Shown one piece after another: positions 5,814 through 40,874 of a stretch of DNA of 64,000 nt; position 1 is the first letter of the stretch, and every line of letters begins with the position of its first letter. The stretch lies in the NCBI GenBank assembly GCA_029570205.1, contig JAKQSI010000114.1, positions 1 to 64,000 on the forward strand, given 5' to 3'. The notes below the pieces were generated by a model that saw only the letters and a list, made by a program, of their open reading frames with translations, was not told the DNA's origin and did not search any database. This stretch comes from Candidatus Omnitrophota bacterium. Its GTDB lineage: Bacteria; Hinthialibacterota; Hinthialibacteria; Hinthialibacterales; JAKPRU01. The translations under genes and the position numbers were made by a program.

Positions 5814-7409
5814 ATGAACACGTCGATACAGCCGTTGAGAACACGGATGAAATACCGGGCGTTCTTTATTCTCCTGGCAGTTTTTTTTACAGCGGACCCC
5901 TTCGCCGGAACAGTTTTCTTTCAGCCCATTGATCCGCCCCGAAAAACCCAGGTGATGGTGCATCGTGGCCTGATGTGCGCCGCGCCGGGCAACACCCTTC
6001 CGGCGTTCCAGGCCGCCATCGAAGCGGGATTCGAATGGGTGGAAACGGATATTCGCCTGACCCGCGACGGGCGCTATGTGCTGTTGCACAATGACACCGT
6101 GGACAGCACCACCGACGGCTCCGGCAAGGTTGAGGACATGCTTCTCGCCGATTTGAAAAAGTTGGACGCCGGAATCTGTTTCGCCCCCAGTTTCAAAGGC
6201 ACACGCATCCCAACCCTTCGCGAAGCGCTGGAGTTCTGCAAAGGAAAGATCAATCTCTACCTTGACTGCAAGGGCCGTATCAATCCCGAAACTCTGGTGA
6301 AAGACATTCGGGAAACCGGCATGGAGTCTCAGGTAATTGTCTTTGACGATCCCGATGTGCTGAAAGAGGTCCGGCGCATCTCCGGGGGCAGTGTGCCGAT
6401 CATGCCCAGCATCAATGACCGCCTGGAAGTGAAATACTGGATGGATAACCTTTCACCTCAGGCCGTCGAAGTTCATGCCGAACTGCTGACGCCCGAATTG
6501 GTCCGTGGGTTCCATGAGGTCGGTGTGACCGTGCAGGCACAGACATTGGGCAAACGCGATTGCCCGGAGGTATGGCGACGCTGCTTCGAGATGGGTGTTG
6601 ACTGGATCCAGACCGATCTCGGCGAGGAGGTGCTGGCCGAGTACGTCTTGTATCACACGGGTGCGAATTTTCCTGTAAAGATCTCTTCCCACCGAGGCGC
6701 AAATGAATTTGCGCCGGAGAATACGTTGGCCGCTTACGAAAAGGCTGCGAAACTGGGCGTAGATTTTGTCGAAATCGACGTACACACCACAAAGGACGGC
6801 GAACAGGTCTCCATTCACGACCATACGCTGGAGCGAACGACAAACGGGACCGGCGCGGTGTCGGATATCCGCTTCGAGGATCTGCGAAAACTCTCCGCCG
6901 GGGCCTGGTTCGGCGCCCCTTTTGCCGATCAAAAAGTTCCTACCGTCGATGAAATCTGTGAGTTGCTGAACGAGTTTGAAACAAAGACCGGAAGGGCGGT
7001 GGAATTGTATGTGGACTGTAAAGCCCCCAATCTGGAGAAACTCGCCGACATTCTCCGCAAGCACAGGAAACTGAGCGGTGCGGTCTTCTACGGGCATCCG
7101 GATAGCTTGCTGCTTCTGCGGAAATACGCCTCGGGGGCAAAACTCATGCCGCCGATGGGCAATCCGTCCGATTTGGAATTACGGGCCAGCCAAGTCAAAC
7201 CTTATGCGCTGGATACGCGGTGGTCGATTCTGTCACAGGAATTGATCTCCAACGCCCATAAGAAAAACATTCGAATCTTCTCGGATGCCATGGGAGATAA
7301 CGAAACGATCGAGCGCTATCGACAGGCCATTCACTGGGGAATCGACACGATCCAGACCGATTACATTCCGCGTGTGCTTCGGGCGATTGAGCTGGAGAGG
7401 CTGTATTGA
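5814..7409 (+). CDS. exported tandem-domain glycerophosphodiester phosphodiesterase
   Basis: The 531-residue product carries a signal peptide (MKYRAFFILLAVFFT) and two complete GDPD-type TIM-barrel domains. Domain 1 covers roughly residues 45-285 (VMVHRGLMCAAPGNTL, WVETDIRLTRDG, LLHNDTVD). Domain 2 covers 290-531 (ISSHRGANEFAPENTL, FVEIDVHTTKDG, SIHDHTLERTTNG). Both keep the HRG, E-x-D and H-x-D residues that bind metal and catalyse cleavage of glycerophosphodiesters to alcohol and glycerol 3-phosphate. The long upstream reading frame overlaps the divergent GH29 start, so the ATG at 5814 is chosen; an alternative ATG is at 5847. The substrate might be lipid head groups or teichoic-acid-like polymers. 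Confidence 0.85.
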   Translation: MNTSIQPLRTRMKYRAFFILLAVFFTADPFAGTVFFQPIDPPRKTQVMVHRGLMCAAPGNTLPAFQAAIEAGFEWVETDIRLTRDGRYVLLHNDTVDSTTDGSGKVEDMLLADLKKLDAGICFAPSFKGTRIPTLREALEFCKGKINLYLDCKGRINPETLVKDIRETGMESQVIVFDDPDVLKEVRRISGGSVPIMPSINDRLEVKYWMDNLSPQAVEVHAELLTPELVRGFHEVGVTVQAQTLGKRDCPEVWRRCFEMGVDWIQTDLGEEVLAEYVLYHTGANFPVKISSHRGANEFAPENTLAAYEKAAKLGVDFVEIDVHTTKDGEQVSIHDHTLERTTNGTGAVSDIRFEDLRKLSAGAWFGAPFADQKVPTVDEICELLNEFETKTGRAVELYVDCKAPNLEKLADILRKHRKLSGAVFYGHPDSLLLLRKYASGAKLMPPMGNPSDLELRASQVKPYALDTRWSILSQELISNAHKKNIRIFSDAMGDNETIERYRQAIHWGIDTIQTDYIPRVLRAIELERLY

Positions 7410-7609
7410 TTCGACATTTAGTTGCCGATGCTGACCAGCGCGTTGCTGGAGTCGTAAAACAGGTGTTCATCGACAAGACGCCAGACGTGCGTTCATGGAA
7501 CTGGGACACAGCCCGCCAAATTGACAATTTGTGGGGATTGGGATTTAATGACGAAACGATAAAGCCCGTCCGTCAAGATCATTCTGACCCATCCGTAAGA
7601 GGAAACCTT

Positions 7610-33856: not shown

Positions 33857-34783
33857 TTATACATCCAGTTCCGCGATACTTTTCCTGTAAATCTCCGCGG
33901 AATCGAGCAGGGCTGCTCTGTCTTCAGGTTTAAGATCCAATTCAACCACTCTGGTTACACCGTTCTTGCCCAACATTGCGGGAACGCCCATAAACAGGTT
34001 ATGGATACCGTATTCCCCTTCAAGATAGCAGGAACAGGGAAGAATGTCATTGGCATCATTGACAATCGATTCGACCATTTTGAGAGTGGCTGCGGCAGGC
34101 GCGTAACAGGCGCTGCCGGTTCCGAGCAGTTTGACTATCTCCCCACCGCCGACCCGTGTGCGCTGGTTGATTGCCTCGATCCGGTCCGCCGGAATGAGCT
34201 GGGTGATCGGAATCCCGGACACGGTGGAGAAAGAGGGCAGGGGAACCATGGAGTCACCATGCCCACCCAGCACCATCGCCCGGACTTCCCTCGGAGAAAT
34301 CCCCAGTTCCATTGCGATAAAACAGGCATACCGTGCTGAATCTAAAACTCCCGCCTGGCCGATCACACGATTCTTGGGGAATCCTGAAATCTTGAAAGCG
34401 TGATACACCATCACATCAATCGGATTTGTGACCATGATAATAATGGCATTCGGGGAATACTTCTTGATGTTTTCAGTGACCTCCGCCACGATTCCGGCGT
34501 TCTTCTTGAGAAGATCGAGCCGGTCCATGCCCGGTTTCCGGGCCAGTCCGGCGGTTATCACAACAATATCGGAGTCCGCCGTATCGGCATAATCGTTGGT
34601 TCCGGTGACTTTCCCGGCAAATCCGAGCAGCCCTCCACATTGCGCAATATCCAGACCTTTTCCGATGGCAACCCCTTCCAGCACATCAATCATCACCACA
34701 TCGCCGAGTTGCCGCTGGGCAAGGAACAGGGCACAGGTCGATCCGACATTTCCTGCGCCGACCACCGTGATCTTCTTTTGCAT
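33857..34783 (-). CDS. mdh: malate dehydrogenase (LDH-like type)
   Basis: This 308-residue NAD-dependent enzyme interconverts malate and oxaloacetate in the TCA cycle. It has VVGAGNVGSTCALFLA (Rossmann P-loop), ITAGLARKPGMDRLDLL with the substrate-binding arginines that favour malate over lactate, VTNPIDVMVY, and LGGHGDSMVPL with the catalytic His. A lactate dehydrogenase would have Gln instead of Arg in the ARKPGM loop, so the call is malate. AGGAGG upstream of the ATG lies in the 21-base gap after icd, so icd and mdh form an operon. Its product feeds the PEPCK gene nearby. Confidence 0.95.
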   Translation of the reverse strand: MQKKITVVGAGNVGSTCALFLAQRQLGDVVMIDVLEGVAIGKGLDIAQCGGLLGFAGKVTGTNDYADTADSDIVVITAGLARKPGMDRLDLLKKNAGIVAEVTENIKKYSPNAIIIMVTNPIDVMVYHAFKISGFPKNRVIGQAGVLDSARYACFIAMELGISPREVRAMVLGGHGDSMVPLPSFSTVSGIPITQLIPADRIEAINQRTRVGGGEIVKLLGTGSACYAPAAATLKMVESIVNDANDILPCSCYLEGEYGIHNLFMGVPAMLGKNGVTRVVELDLKPEDRAALLDSAEIYRKSIAELDV

Positions 34784-34804
34784 GATTCATTCCTCCTATG
34801 GGGG

Positions 34805-36046
34805 TCACTCCATATTTTCTGTAATCGTTTGGGCGAATTCCGAGCACCTGAGAAGGGTTGCGCCTTCCATTTGACGTTCCAAGTCATAGGTAACCCGTTT
34901 TTGCTGGATCGTTTTCTCCATTGCGGAGACGGTTTTGTCCGCCGCTTCCTGCCAGCCCAGATGTTCCAGCATCATCACGCCGGAGAGGATCAGGGAACCC
35001 GGATTCACCTTATCCTGTCCCGCGTATTTGGGTGCAGTTCCGTGCGTTGCCTCGAAAACCGCCGCTTCATCGCCGATGTTCGCGCCGGGAGCCATTCCCA
35101 AACCGCCGACCTGTGCCGCCGCCGCGTCCGAAAGATAGTCTCCGTTCAGGTTCGGCAGCGTCACCACTTCATACTCATCCGGTCGCAACAGCACCTGCTG
35201 AAACATGGAATCGGCGATGCGATCCTTGATAACCACCTGTCCCTCCTTGACTTGCCCGTTCTGTCTTTCCCAGAGATCCGCCTCCGAGATAAGGCGGTCA
35301 GGAAACTCCTCCCTGGCCAATTCGTACCCCCAGTCCCGAAATGCGCCTTCCGTAAACTTCATGATGTTCCCTTTGTGTACAAGGGTCACGCTTTTTCTGC
35401 CCCGACGAAGGGCGTACTTAATCGCGGCACGGACAATGCGTTTGGTCCCGAATATGCTGATCGGCTTGATTCCGATTCCAGAATCCTCCCGGATATTTCT
35501 CCCCATCTCCTCATTGAGGAATTGAATGACTTTCCTGCACTCGTCGGACCCCTGTTTCCACTCAATACCGGCGTATACGTCCTCTGTGTTTTCCCGGTAA
35601 ATCACGATATTCAGTCGTTCGGGTTCCTTGACCGGACTGGGCGTGCCTTTCAGATACCTCACCGGCCGGACACAGGCATACAAATCAAGGATCTGGCGAA
35701 TACTCACATTCAGCGAACGAAAGCCCCCGCCCACGGGCGTGGTCAAAGGGCCTTTGATGGCGACCTTGAATTCCCGAATTGCATTCAGGGTTTCATCGGG
35801 AAGATAACTGCCATACCGTTCGTTCGCCTTTTCTCCCGCGAAGATTTCCATCCAAACGATGCGTTTTTTGCCGCTGTAAGATTTTTGAACCGCGGCATCG
35901 AGTACGATGCGCATAGCCCGAGTGATATCCGGGCCGATTCCGTCGCCTTCAATAAACGGGATGATTGGGGTATCCGGTACCTGGAGGGCATCTGTGGTTC
36001 CGGCGATTTGTTCCCCGTCCCCGGGTACAACGATTTTCTCAAACAT
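34805..36046 (-). CDS. icd: NADP-type isocitrate dehydrogenase
   Basis: The 413-residue enzyme oxidatively decarboxylates isocitrate to 2-oxoglutarate. Features are [38 protein letters not shown] (substrate Ser and Arg), [57 protein letters not shown] and [19 protein letters not shown]. Length and motifs match the E. coli type rather than the monomeric or eukaryotic-like classes. The ATG at 36046 follows AAGGTGAAACCC; the frame is open another 147 bases upstream, but that part is unlike any Icd. It is the first gene of the icd-mdh unit. Confidence 0.95.
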
Positions 36047-36521
36047 GGGTTTCACCTTTTGCCTGCTGAAGTGGATGCATTGATCCTGTTTCGTCGCATT
36101 CCCCCGCGCCAAAAACCATACGCGCCATGGCGATGCATAAGTATAAACGGTATGAACGAAAGGACAAACCCTTTTATTCGGGGGCGATGGCACACCGGAG
36201 ATATTCCACTCGCGGCAGAAGCCGTGCTTCCGGGTTCTCGGATGAACGATTTGTCCCTATTCCCTTGATGTCTCCACCAGGGTCCGCCTTTCAAGCGGGT
36301 TGTGTTGGACATACACATCTTTCCCGGCCTGACAGGCGATGATTTCCGGCAGGTTGTTGCCATGACATCATGGCATCATGGCATTCTCCTTTCTTCGGGT
36401 AATGATAGACTCATGTCTTATGTCAGATTCTCCGGGCATGGAGGATAAACCGTTTGACGAAAAGTATAAAAATAAAAAGGATGAGAAACGCTTGCTATCC
36501 GTTGGTTTCTGTCCGACATGT
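36047..36521. other. intergenic region between divergent genes
   Basis: No real gene is apparent. It contains promoter regions for icd (minus) and the GHKL ATPase (plus). Short ORFs on both strands lack ribosome sites. A tandem ATGGCATCATGGCATT motif occurs near 36369-36381, and the sequence becomes A/T-rich toward 36470. I see no tRNA or structured RNA. Confidence 0.4.
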
Positions 36522-36550: not shown

Positions 36551-36591
36551 ACACGCAATATAAGTTGCAAAACCCAAAAGGGAGAAACGGT

Positions 36592-37191
36592 TTGCTTTTT
36601 GCAGTCGAGTCCCTGGATTTGCAGGAAGAGCTTCGTGCCATCGAAGCGTCTCTCGAACCGACCCTGCGACGGATTGTCATTCCGGCGGAGATTCGTATCT
36701 CGCATCCCATCAACACACGCGGATTCTATCATGTCAATCCGAATTACTATTGGCTTTTCGCTTTCTTGAGCGAAGTGGAATCCGAGTTATCCGAACACAG
36801 GGAGAGGATTTACTGCATATTAAACAGTAACGTGATTGTAGCCCTGCTGGAAAATGCCTTCTCGTGGGGGAACCGACGTGATCCGAGACGCCCGATTCTT
36901 GTGGAATTCTATGTCGGGCGAACCGGGGTATTGGTTCGAATTCAAGACGACGGTCCGGGATTCGAGTATCGCCATGTTGTCGGGAAATATCATGACCAGG
37001 ACTTCGGGGATTGTGGCGAATTTGAGAACACCGGATACGGTTTACGAATCATGGACCGGTCGTCGCTGAATGTAATTTATGAGGGGAAAGGCGATACGGT
37101 GTATATCATCGACTATTTCAAGGAAGGCGCGGCGCCGCGTTTTTTACTTCAGGAGCAGCAAGCGCTTCATAAGGTTGGAAGCGCTCAATGA
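36592..37191 (+). CDS. stand-alone GHKL (anti-sigma/kinase-type) ATPase
   Basis: This protein of about 199 residues is a histidine-kinase-type ATPase domain without receiver, HisKA or membrane parts. The ATP-binding boxes are clear: N-box NVIVALLENAFSWG, G1 box QDDGPGFE and G2 box GYGLRIMDRSS. Related single-domain proteins (RsbW/SpoIIAB type) phosphorylate anti-anti-sigma factors or bind sigma factors. The start is uncertain. A TTG at 36592 sits 7 bases after AAGGGAG, and an alternative TTG is at 36565. The last 74 bases overlap the end of the HAD-PEPCK gene in the opposite direction. No STAS partner is adjacent. Confidence 0.75.
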   Translation: MLFAVESLDLQEELRAIEASLEPTLRRIVIPAEIRISHPINTRGFYHVNPNYYWLFAFLSEVESELSEHRERIYCILNSNVIVALLENAFSWGNRRDPRRPILVEFYVGRTGVLVRIQDDGPGFEYRHVVGKYHDQDFGDCGEFENTGYGLRIMDRSSLNVIYEGKGDTVYIIDYFKEGAAPRFLLQEQQALHKVGSAQ

Positions 37192-39226
37192 ACAGTTTGG
37201 CCAGCTTGGCCGATGCTTTGGTATAGGCTTCCATATCGTTCCGCCAGGCCATCAACACATTCGTATGTCCGGCGAGAATTCCTTCAATGCGAACCGGATA
37301 TTCCAGATCGAACACGGGCGTGCGTTCGTATTCGGCATCTTCTACGGTGCCGGTAAAAATACCGTTGAGAATCTGGCGGGTCATAGTCAGAGTAATTGGA
37401 TGTCCGTGCGATTGATACGGCCCCAGCCAGCCGGTGTTGACCAGCCAGCAGTTGACATCGTATTCAATAATCCGCTGGAGAAGAAGTCGCGCGTACGCCG
37501 TTGGATGGAGTACGTTTGGGAACGACCCAAAACAGCTTTGGAACATCGGTTCCACGCTGCCGACTGTGCCGCTTGGGGCGTAATGGATGTTGCAGGAATA
37601 TCCGCACAGAAAATAGAAACAGGCTTGTTCCGGGGTCAGGCGGGCGATACTGGGAAAGATACCGAATCCGTCCCGAACCAGAAGAATGATGTTGGTGGGG
37701 TGATCCCCGCGGCCGGTTCGATCCGCGTTCTCCAGGTGCGTAAACGGAAACGCGGCTCGAATCTCCTCACTGATCGAAGTGTTGTTCAAGTCCACTCGAC
37801 GACGTTCATCCATGTAGACGTTTTCCAGGATGGTTCCAAACCGTCGGGTGCATTCATAGATATGCCGCTGATAGTACGGGCTGTAGCCCTTCACTTTTCC
37901 GTAACAACCCCACTCCAGGTTGAAAATCCCGTCCTCGCTCCAACCGTGAAATGTATCCCCGATCAGCGGACGAGTGATATCCAGGGACAGAGAGGTTTTT
38001 CCCGCCCCGGTACCCCCGAAAAACAGCGTGACATCACCATCCATTCCTTTGTTCGCCGAACACAAAAGCGGTAGAACATTTTCGTGAGGAAGAAGGTGGC
38101 TCACGATAGTGAATACACAGATACGGATTTCTCCGGCAAAAGCCGTCCCCCCCACAATCGCGATCTTCTTAAGGAAATTAACGACGATAAACGCTTCGTC
38201 TTGGGTCCCGTCCAGTTCCGGAATGGCGTGGAAGTTGGGCATGTGCAGAATGGTATATTCGGGAAAGTAATGGCGCATCTGGCGAGGACTGGTCTCCACC
38301 AGCAGATTCCGTGCAAAGAGGCTGTGCCATGCGGTCTCTGTGATGACCCGGATCGGGACGCGAAAACGGGGGTCTGCCCCGCAATAGCAGTCCTGAACAA
38401 ACAACTGCTTCCCCTGGAGATAGGCAAGAAGTCGCGCATAGAGCATATCGAATTGTTTGCGTTCAAGGGGCATGTTGTAATCGCCCCACCAGATTTTACT
38501 CTCGGTCGACGGCTCTTTCACAATGTAGGCGTGATCCAGGTGCGTCTTGTTCTCGCCGGAATCTACAACCAGCGGACCATTATGCGCAATTCGGCTCTCT
38601 CCACGCTGGACGGAGTGTTCATAAAGATCGGCTGTAGTCAGGTTGAAATGGACCTTGCCCACATTCTTGATGCCGTGAATCTCCAGGCCGGTCATGCTGG
38701 AATCGGGATCGATCCCAATAAAGGAATTGAATGAAAAATGGCGATCTTCCAGGGTGTTGGGAACCCGAATGAACCGGATGCCGTATTTCTCGGCGGATTT
38801 CTGGTCCACATCGCTGTCCCCGATGAAAACGGCCTGTTCCGGCGGCACCTGCATGTCTTGGCAAATTGTTTCCAGGTTTTTGAGGGAAGTAACGGTATCC
38901 AGATGTTCTTCCCCGTAAATTCGCCTGATCATGTCCGCAATTCCGAACCGCTCAAATTGCTCCTGGAGACGCTTCCGATTTCCATCGGAGCTGATCACGA
39001 TGCTTTTCTGCTGTATCTTGGTGTAGAATGTCAGGAAATTGAGCAGTCCCTCTCGCGGAGTCCAATCGATTTTCTGTATTTCTTCCGGGTCCCCGAACAT
39101 CGGCCCCTGGATATAAGATATATCCCGTTTCAGGATCGTGTCGTGTGCATCCACGATGAGGAGCTGAATATCCGGTGGAATCCGATATTCCACCTCTTTG
39201 CCGGGTTTGTGTCGGGTACGAAGCAT
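37118..39226 (-). CDS. HAD domain fused to degenerate ATP-type PEP carboxykinase
   Basis: The 702-residue protein joins a HAD-like domain (about 20-175) to an ATP-dependent PEPCK-like domain (about 185-690). HAD motifs are LLIVDAHDTIL (Asp26, but His28 in place of the usual second Asp), VISSDGN and FIGDSDVD. The PEPCK part aligns along its length with the intact paralogue at 39276-40874 and keeps the P-loop GGTGAGKTSLS (Lys410), GDGIF-type EDGIFN and the WLVNTGW end. All three Mn2+ ligands are replaced: Lys by Ile369 in GEIRI, His by Leu388 in PLLCSAN and the second Asp by Thr425 in LIGDT. The substrate arginine block TGRSP reads SGENKTH. It may bind ATP but should not make PEP. A regulatory or ATP-sensing role beside pckA is my inference. 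Its 3' end overlaps the GHKL gene. Confidence 0.85.
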   Translation of the reverse strand: MLRTRHKPGKEVEYRIPPDIQLLIVDAHDTILKRDISYIQGPMFGDPEEIQKIDWTPREGLLNFLTFYTKIQQKSIVISSDGNRKRLQEQFERFGIADMIRRIYGEEHLDTVTSLKNLETICQDMQVPPEQAVFIGDSDVDQKSAEKYGIRFIRVPNTLEDRHFSFNSFIGIDPDSSMTGLEIHGIKNVGKVHFNLTTADLYEHSVQRGESRIAHNGPLVVDSGENKTHLDHAYIVKEPSTESKIWWGDYNMPLERKQFDMLYARLLAYLQGKQLFVQDCYCGADPRFRVPIRVITETAWHSLFARNLLVETSPRQMRHYFPEYTILHMPNFHAIPELDGTQDEAFIVVNFLKKIAIVGGTAFAGEIRICVFTIVSHLLPHENVLPLLCSANKGMDGDVTLFFGGTGAGKTSLSLDITRPLIGDTFHGWSEDGIFNLEWGCYGKVKGYSPYYQRHIYECTRRFGTILENVYMDERRRVDLNNTSISEEIRAAFPFTHLENADRTGRGDHPTNIILLVRDGFGIFPSIARLTPEQACFYFLCGYSCNIHYAPSGTVGSVEPMFQSCFGSFPNVLHPTAYARLLLQRIIEYDVNCWLVNTGWLGPYQSHGHPITLTMTRQILNGIFTGTVEDAEYERTPVFDLEYPVRIEGILAGHTNVLMAWRNDMEAYTKASAKLAKLFIERFQPYEALAAPEVKNAAPRLP

Positions 39227-39275: not shown

Positions 39276-40874
39276 CTACCTGCAATACGCCTTCACTTTT
39301 GCCGCCGCCTCCCGGATATCAGGAGACTCCTTCGCTTTGTCTTCATACTTCGTGAAATTCTTACTGAAAAGGGTCGCCAGTTTTGCCGCCTGCCTGTCAT
39401 AAGCCTCTTTGTCCTTCCAGGTTTCCCGTGGATGCAGGACGTTTTGAGACACTCCCTTCAGGGTCTTGGGAACGGCCAGACCGTAAAGACCATTCTCAAC
39501 GAATTCAACAGAGTGGATACTGCCATCCAGAATGGCATCAATGATTGCCCGGGTTTGCGGAAGACTCATGCGGGACCCGATTCCGAAAGGTCCTCCGGAC
39601 CATCCGGTGTTGACTAACCAGGCGGTCGCTTTGTATTGCCGCAGTTTCTTCTGAAGCAATTCCGCATACACGGTCGGATGCCAGACCAGAAAGGCGGCTC
39701 CGAAACACGCCGAGAATGTGGCTTCCGGGTCCGTGATCCCCACCTCGGTTCCCGCCACCTTCGCCGTATATCCGCTCACAAAATGATACATCGCCTGGCC
39801 TTCAGTCAACCGGCTGACAGGGGGAAGCACTCCGAACGCATCGCAGGTCAGGAAAATGATATTCCTGGGATGGCTGCCCACACCGGGAATCTTGGCATTC
39901 GCCATGTGCTCAATCGGATAAGAGGCGCGAGTGTTCTCGGTAATTGAGCCGTCATAATAATCCACAACATGGGTCTGCTCGTCGTAAACCACATTTTCCA
40001 AAACCGTGCCGAAGCGAATCGCTTTCCAGATATCCGGTTCCCCTTCCTTGCTGAGTCGGATCACTTTGGCATAGCAGCCGCCTTCGAAGTTGAAAATTCC
40101 GTCATCCGTCCACCCATGCTCATCATCGCCGATCAGTCTCCGTTTCGGGTCCGCAGAAAGTGTGGTTTTCCCTGTCCCGGACAAGCCAAAGAAGAGAGCC
40201 ACATCCCCATCGGGTCCCTCGTTGGCGGAACAATGCATTGAGAGCGCCCCCGCTTTTGGAAGCAAGTAATTCAGAATCGTGAAAATCCCCTTTTTCATTT
40301 CCCCGGCGTACTCGGTTCCCAAGATAACCAGTTCACGGGTCTTGATGTTCAGGTTTATGCTGGTTTTCTTGGTAACACTCGGCGTGTGCGAATTGGCCGG
40401 AAATTGGCCGGAATTATAGATGACCCAATCCGGCTCACCGAAATTCTCCAATTCCTCCGCTGTCGGGCGAATCAGCATGTTGTGCATAAACAGCGCATGA
40501 TACGCCCGTGCGCAGATCACGCGCATTTTGATGCGATGCCGCGTGTCCCAACCGGCAAAGCCATCCACACAAAAAAGATGGGGTCGGGAGTTCAGAAAAT
40601 CTATCGCGGTTTCCTTATTGATGGCGAACCCTTCTTCGCTGATCGGAATGTTGATCGACCCCCACCATACATCTTCCCTGTGGAGCTCTTCCTCAACAAC
40701 CCGTTTTTCGAGAGGACTTCGCCCGGTTTTTGCCCCGGAATAGGCAATCAACGCGCCGGTATCTGCAATTGTGCATCCGGGTTCCTGAAGCCCCAGCTCA
40801 TACAACCGGGGCACACATGGATTCCGGTCAACGTTCTTCACGGTAATCCCGTGCGATAAGAGGTCAAATACCAT
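39276..40874 (-). CDS. pckA: phosphoenolpyruvate carboxykinase (ATP)
   Basis: The 532-residue enzyme converts oxaloacetate and ATP to PEP, CO2 and ADP in gluconeogenesis. All diagnostic elements are present: SGAKTGRSPLEK (substrate Arg), GTEYAGEMKKGIF (metal Lys), SMHCSANEG (metal His), GLSGTGKTTLSAD (P-loop), LIGDDEHGW (metal Asp pair), NTRASYPIEH and WLVNTGWSGG. It is located directly upstream of the HAD-PEPCK fusion with 49 bases between, so the two are likely co-expressed. The nearby mdh gene supplies oxaloacetate. Confidence 0.97.
   Translation of the reverse strand: MVFDLLSHGITVKNVDRNPCVPRLYELGLQEPGCTIADTGALIAYSGAKTGRSPLEKRVVEEELHREDVWWGSINIPISEEGFAINKETAIDFLNSRPHLFCVDGFAGWDTRHRIKMRVICARAYHALFMHNMLIRPTAEELENFGEPDWVIYNSGQFPANSHTPSVTKKTSINLNIKTRELVILGTEYAGEMKKGIFTILNYLLPKAGALSMHCSANEGPDGDVALFFGLSGTGKTTLSADPKRRLIGDDEHGWTDDGIFNFEGGCYAKVIRLSKEGEPDIWKAIRFGTVLENVVYDEQTHVVDYYDGSITENTRASYPIEHMANAKIPGVGSHPRNIIFLTCDAFGVLPPVSRLTEGQAMYHFVSGYTAKVAGTEVGITDPEATFSACFGAAFLVWHPTVYAELLQKKLRQYKATAWLVNTGWSGGPFGIGSRMSLPQTRAIIDAILDGSIHSVEFVENGLYGLAVPKTLKGVSQNVLHPRETWKDKEAYDRQAAKLATLFSKNFTKYEDKAKESPDIREAAAKVKAYCR

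Follow-up and report, generated by a model that had tools for sequence, protein, structure and literature searches.

A candidate pseudo-PEPCK fused to a HAD-like domain beside pckA in an Omnitrophota bacterium

Introduction

Phosphoenolpyruvate carboxykinase (PEPCK) is the textbook enzyme of gluconeogenesis. The window, the whole 64,000-nucleotide stretch of DNA from an uncultured Omnitrophota bacterium analysed here, carries two genes of this family side by side, one a canonical pckA and the other encoding a protein in which a HAD-like domain precedes a PEPCK domain with an altered active site. The locus raises the question of what such a gene does next to an intact pckA, and of where it came from. 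The answer reaches beyond a single genus. Two lineages have kept the PEPCK fold and ATP site after dismantling the catalytic metal site, one as a HAD fusion under selection beside pckA and the other as a broad family in the Desulfobacterota. A gene labelled pckA by automatic annotation may encode something other than PEPCK, and the two lineages allow a test of whether PEPCK can turn into a nucleotide-dependent regulator or kinase.

Architecture, setting and conservation of the fusion gene

The gene is an open reading frame for 702 amino acids (37118..39226, minus strand) and encodes a HAD-like domain followed by a full-length ATP-dependent PEPCK domain. The PEPCK_ATP domain occupies residues 191-650 (37277..38656, minus strand), as seen in a profile search (PF01293, E 1.3e-149), an AF2 model and a match to the Thermus structure 1j3b. 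The HAD-like domain (about residues 19-160; 38747..39172, minus strand) was detected as HAD_2 at residues 70-155 in the whole protein (E 6.7e-10) and as PF13419 when the HAD part was searched alone (E 5.9e-11), and is backed by an AF2 model and PDB match. The coordinates, length and residue numbers of an earlier, sequence-only reading proved exact. The fusion is genuine and not an assembly artefact, the same fusion being present in a separate metagenome-assembled genome (MAG).

By profile search, the window genome contains exactly two PEPCK_ATP genes, the fusion and its neighbour, a canonical pckA (39276..40874, minus strand) that has all catalytic residues and lies 49 bp upstream. The two are probably cotranscribed; promoter and terminator scans gave chance-level results only. 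One congener (G001) carries the whole fusion at 91% identity over residues 1-701, and in another (G002) the C-terminal 460 residues are found at 97% identity, the contig ending there. The window and G001 share one gene order, in which pckA is followed by the fusion and then by a convergent HATPase gene; the fusion and HATPase pair also occurs in G002, so that the pckA-fusion linkage is known from two genomes of one genus. Between G000 and G001, dN/dS by the method of Nei and Gojobori is 0.060 for the fusion (0.11 for the HAD part, 0.045 for the PEPCK part) and 0.061 for pckA at similar dS. The reading frame is under strong purifying selection, which acts on both domains, and because two congeners keep the gene and its dN/dS equals that of pckA, it is not decaying.

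The 3' end of the fusion overlaps the convergent HATPase_c_2 gene (36565-37191, plus strand) by 74 bp (37118-37191), an overlap kept in both congeners. Beyond the HATPase gene, at 33857-36193, the same strand carries a malate dehydrogenase-like gene and one of isocitrate dehydrogenase type (PF00180), which makes the locus rich in central carbon metabolism. A PADLOC search for membership in a defence system gave no match.

A PEPCK domain stripped of its metal ligands

The AF2 model of the PEPCK domain has a pLDDT mostly above 90 and superimposes on 1j3b with a Z score of 54.1 (rmsd 1.4, 511 residues aligned). The catalytic roles given here to individual residues are those generally assigned in PEPCK. 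The equivalents of Lys213, His232 and Asp269 (E. coli numbering), the protein ligands of the catalytic Mn2+, are Ile369 (38120..38122), Leu388 (38063..38065) and Thr425 (37952..37954, all minus strand). Gap-free blocks surround all three positions in alignments of the fusion with the Thermus and T. cruzi enzymes, so that chance and mis-alignment are ruled out as causes of the loss and no sensible realignment restores the ligands; the replacements reported in the sequence-only reading are thus borne out. G002 has the same three residues and G001 has Thr/Leu/Thr, again non-coordinating.

The substrate site is altered as well. Tyr207 is replaced by Phe363, the TGRSP block that carries Arg65 reads NKTHLDH, and the region is shorter, so that the counterpart of Arg65 is of uncertain alignment: Thr228 with MAFFT, a gap against Thermus, or Lys227 against T. 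cruzi. The claim that the TGRSP block is gone holds for the arginine, although a lysine could stand near its position. Further changes are Lys212 to Arg, Ser250 to Thr406, Glu270 to Phe and Arg449 to Pro610; the changes at Arg449, on the nucleotide side, and at Ser250 mean that nucleotide binding may also be altered. In all, 58 canonical PEPCKs have 94 positions with conservation of at least 95%, and 31 of these are changed in the fusion, which also falls below every curated NCBIfam PEPCK cut-off (548.7 against 636 bits for the best model, and 452.7 against 590.05). Its matches in the PDB include the PEPCK mutants K213S (2py7), D269N (6com), R65Q (6crt) and Y207F (6at3).

The Mg-ATP site, in contrast to the metal and substrate sites, is unchanged at its key residues. 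The P-loop GGTGAGKTS (residues 404-412; 37991..38017, minus strand) is still present, as had been noted, with its Walker A pair Lys410-Thr411, and Asp424, Lys444 and Arg490 are likewise kept; the equivalents of E. coli Lys254, Thr255, Asp268, Lys288, Glu297 and Arg333 are all retained. Compared with ATP-dependent PEPCK (PF01293; 1j3b from Thermus, 1aq2 from E. coli), the fusion thus shares the fold, the P-loop, the Asp268, Glu297 and Arg333 equivalents and 42% identity to the Thermus enzyme, and it differs in the Ile/Leu/Thr ligand positions, in residues 65, 207 and 449, and in the N-terminal HAD domain.

A reduced HAD domain

The HAD part has a pLDDT mostly below 50 in the full-length AF2 model and was therefore folded alone. 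The resulting model (pLDDT 75) best matches 2ybd in the PDB (Z 18.3, rmsd 3.3, 158 residues aligned), with 7qnm also matching (Z 17.3). Motif I reads Asp26-Ala27-His28 (39143..39151, minus strand), in which the nucleophile Asp26 is kept and the aspartate at +2, the general acid/base, is His28, in agreement with the non-canonical Asp-x-His described earlier (alignment A2). The acidic pair of motif IV, Asp137 and Asp141, is present, and Asp137 (in GDSDVD; 38816..38818, minus strand) is invariant in alignment A2. In the same alignment motif III, KPxP, reads TSLK, with threonine in the lysine column and Lys116 about three residues further on. The core fold, nucleophile and motif IV are common to this domain and to HAD subfamily I phosphatases and L-2-haloacid dehalogenases; unlike these, it is nearly capless, has histidine at +2 and does not have the KPxP motif III in its usual place. 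Phosphatase activity is doubtful because of the histidine at the general-acid position, the near absence of a cap and the displaced motif III.

Distribution and ancestry

A search with the fusion of 386 genomes, ranging from congeners to members of other phyla, found the HAD-PEPCK domain order within this genus only, all other strong matches starting at query residue 163 or later and having no HAD part. Compared alone with 145 genomes, the HAD part had no matches beyond the genus other than weak ones to HAD genes of the ordinary kind. Among 84,980 species genomes, an 8-mer scan, which reaches close relatives only and would miss a distant HAD-PEPCK fusion, picked up nothing but the two congeners and a single Desulfonema MAG, and a scan of 395 genomes for the pattern NLEWGCY gave the known occurrence only. 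The matches in phage and plasmid collections were all PEPCKs, about 33-42% identical to the C-terminal part, and IMG/VR yielded no match. Long frames in four genomes (G796, G510, G535 and G011), read as candidates for further HAD-PEPCK fusions, proved to be open frames running through neighbouring or unrelated DNA, and apparent internal TAA stops at four loci (L096, L097, L099 and L100) are normal gene ends. Literature searches found nothing on Omnitrophota PEPCK, and for PEPCK pseudoenzymes they turned up only a PGK review containing both words. The earlier impression that the fusion resembles no described enzyme stands for the libraries and literature searched; it appears to be undescribed, occurs in a single genus as far as these searches reached, and is a new form within the PEPCK fold family rather than a new kind of system.

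The PEPCK part does align throughout with the adjacent pckA product, as first noted, at 38% identity, but PEPCKs from other bacteria come closer (up to 50%), and the neighbour is not its sister. In a tree of 86 rows it has a long, fully supported branch to itself, with 1.49 changes per column before the genus; the place of this branch inside a large clade of PEPCKs from other families is unresolved, and the resident PckA falls in a different clade. Joining the two was rejected (AU p = 0.0013), which rules out a recent duplicate of the neighbouring pckA. The rejection and the separate clades together indicate that the gene was acquired or descended from an older, different PEPCK.

Ligand-less PEPCK paralogues in the Desulfobacterota

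The sequence-only reading implied that the protein was unique, and this stands for the HAD fusion but not for the loss of the metal ligands. Searching around the Desulfonema match uncovered a family of ligand-less PEPCK paralogues in the Desulfobacterota (loci L035, at 5971-7608, L042-L045, L053 and L076-L095; also L103-L116). Twenty-four proteins group together in a single clade (SH-aLRT 100), and canonical PEPCKs from the same order are its sister group. Of the 24, 20 have Gln in place of Lys213, 23 have Arg in place of His232 and 23 have His in place of Asp269, and the P-loop is kept; Ser250 is often Glu. At least 9 of 23 genomes with such a paralogue hold a second PEPCK gene of canonical score (above 700 bits), and in several others there is a second gene whose score is intermediate. 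Directly upstream, 14 of the 15 loci read encode a protein of 720-760 amino acids, and the one member scanned has an acetyl-CoA hydrolase/transferase C-terminal domain (PF13336) and is CoA-transferase-like. The paralogues also have a conserved C-terminal end near GFSM.

The PEPCK fold, the replacement of all three ligands and the kept P-loop are common to this family and the fusion. The Desulfobacterota proteins differ in being without the HAD domain, in having Gln/Arg/His at the ligand positions and in their CoA-transferase-like neighbour in place of pckA. The family is possibly more widespread and tractable than the case in the window.

Proposed function

The fusion probably has a new job, most likely a regulatory one, since the residues of the usual chemistry have been lost while the ATP pocket was kept and a phosphatase-like front domain was gained in a conserved gene. 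The reading that we prefer, with a probability of roughly one half, is a functional pseudo-PEPCK, maintained by selection, that would bind nucleotide and serve as a regulator or scaffold in the vicinity of PckA. It is favoured by the changes at the ligands, Arg65, Tyr207 and other near-invariant positions set against unchanged Mg-ATP residues, by the retained fold, the low dN/dS, the non-coordinating replacements in G001 and the conserved gene order, and by the intact resident pckA, which already supplies PEPCK activity. On this proposal the PEPCK fold would still bind Mg-nucleotide (ATP or ADP) through Lys410, Thr411, Asp424, Lys444 and Arg490; it would not carry the second, catalytic Mn2+ or orient oxaloacetate and PEP normally, and for that reason would make no PEP. 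The protein could act as a nucleotide-responsive regulator or scaffold, its most likely target being the flow of carbon at the PEP/oxaloacetate node, which it would influence via PckA or some other partner. The reduced HAD domain would be a module that binds a ligand or has weak phosphatase activity. Regulation of PckA itself is plausible from the conserved pckA-fusion gene order. Against a pseudo-PEPCK, the presence of Arg490 and Glu468 would fit just as well with an enzyme that acts on another substrate.

HPr kinase/phosphorylase, a shorter kinase with its own catalytic Asp, combines both activities in one site and has no HAD domain. If the fusion were a kinase/phosphatase, this enzyme would be its functional analogue; neither Pfam nor NCBIfam gave a match to the HPr kinase family profile in the fusion. 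A bifunctional enzyme of this sort is unlikely; in it the PEPCK fold would use a single Mg2+, as HPr kinase does, to phosphorylate a new substrate, either a metabolite or a protein, and the HAD domain would take the phosphate off again. PEPCK and HPr kinase belong by fold to one kinase group (PMC1079889), the Mg-ATP residues with Arg490 and the HAD nucleophile with motif IV are kept, and selection acts on both domains. Standing against it, the three ligand positions, with Ile or Thr, Leu and Thr, offer no obvious new catalytic base; the HAD domain has the changes at +2, motif III and cap described above; and nothing indicates a substrate. The more specific version, a single-metal PEPCK-fold kinase and HAD phosphatase that reversibly phosphorylate PckA or another central-metabolism enzyme, built from PEPCK independently of HPr kinase/phosphorylase, is decidedly improbable.

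Also rather unlikely is an enzyme of changed specificity, whose substrate would be some other acid or acyl compound and which would parallel the Desulfobacterota paralogues with their conserved Gln/Arg/His and CoA-transferase-like linkage. Of the 94 near-invariant columns, 31 are changed in the fusion and 19 in the Desulfobacterota group, and the 14 changed in both exceed chance (p = 6e-5); the two groups are separate in the tree, and a single clade joining them was not rejected (AU p 0.46). The replacing residues differ, however (I/L/T against Q/R/H), as do gene context and architecture, and the shared changes may reflect merely the loss of one function, for which the same active-site focus would be expected.

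It is very improbable that the protein remains an active PEPCK whose metal site has been rearranged: the fold and P-loop are kept and, by one alignment, Lys227 may lie close to where Arg65 would be, but the catalytic metal has lost every one of its three protein ligands, in blocks aligned without gaps. That the gene is a relaxed pckA duplicate on its way to a pseudogene, as the long branch and the many lost near-invariant positions might suggest, is scarcely credible, being already contradicted by a dN/dS of 0.06 over 700 codons, by a frame intact in separately assembled genomes and by the rejected origin from the resident pckA.

A further second PEPCK was seen in one family of genomes (L074, on G818:C173, and G551:C59). 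In L074 it has Lys213 changed to Arg and Asp268 to Asn, and was reported with a TGA inside the match.
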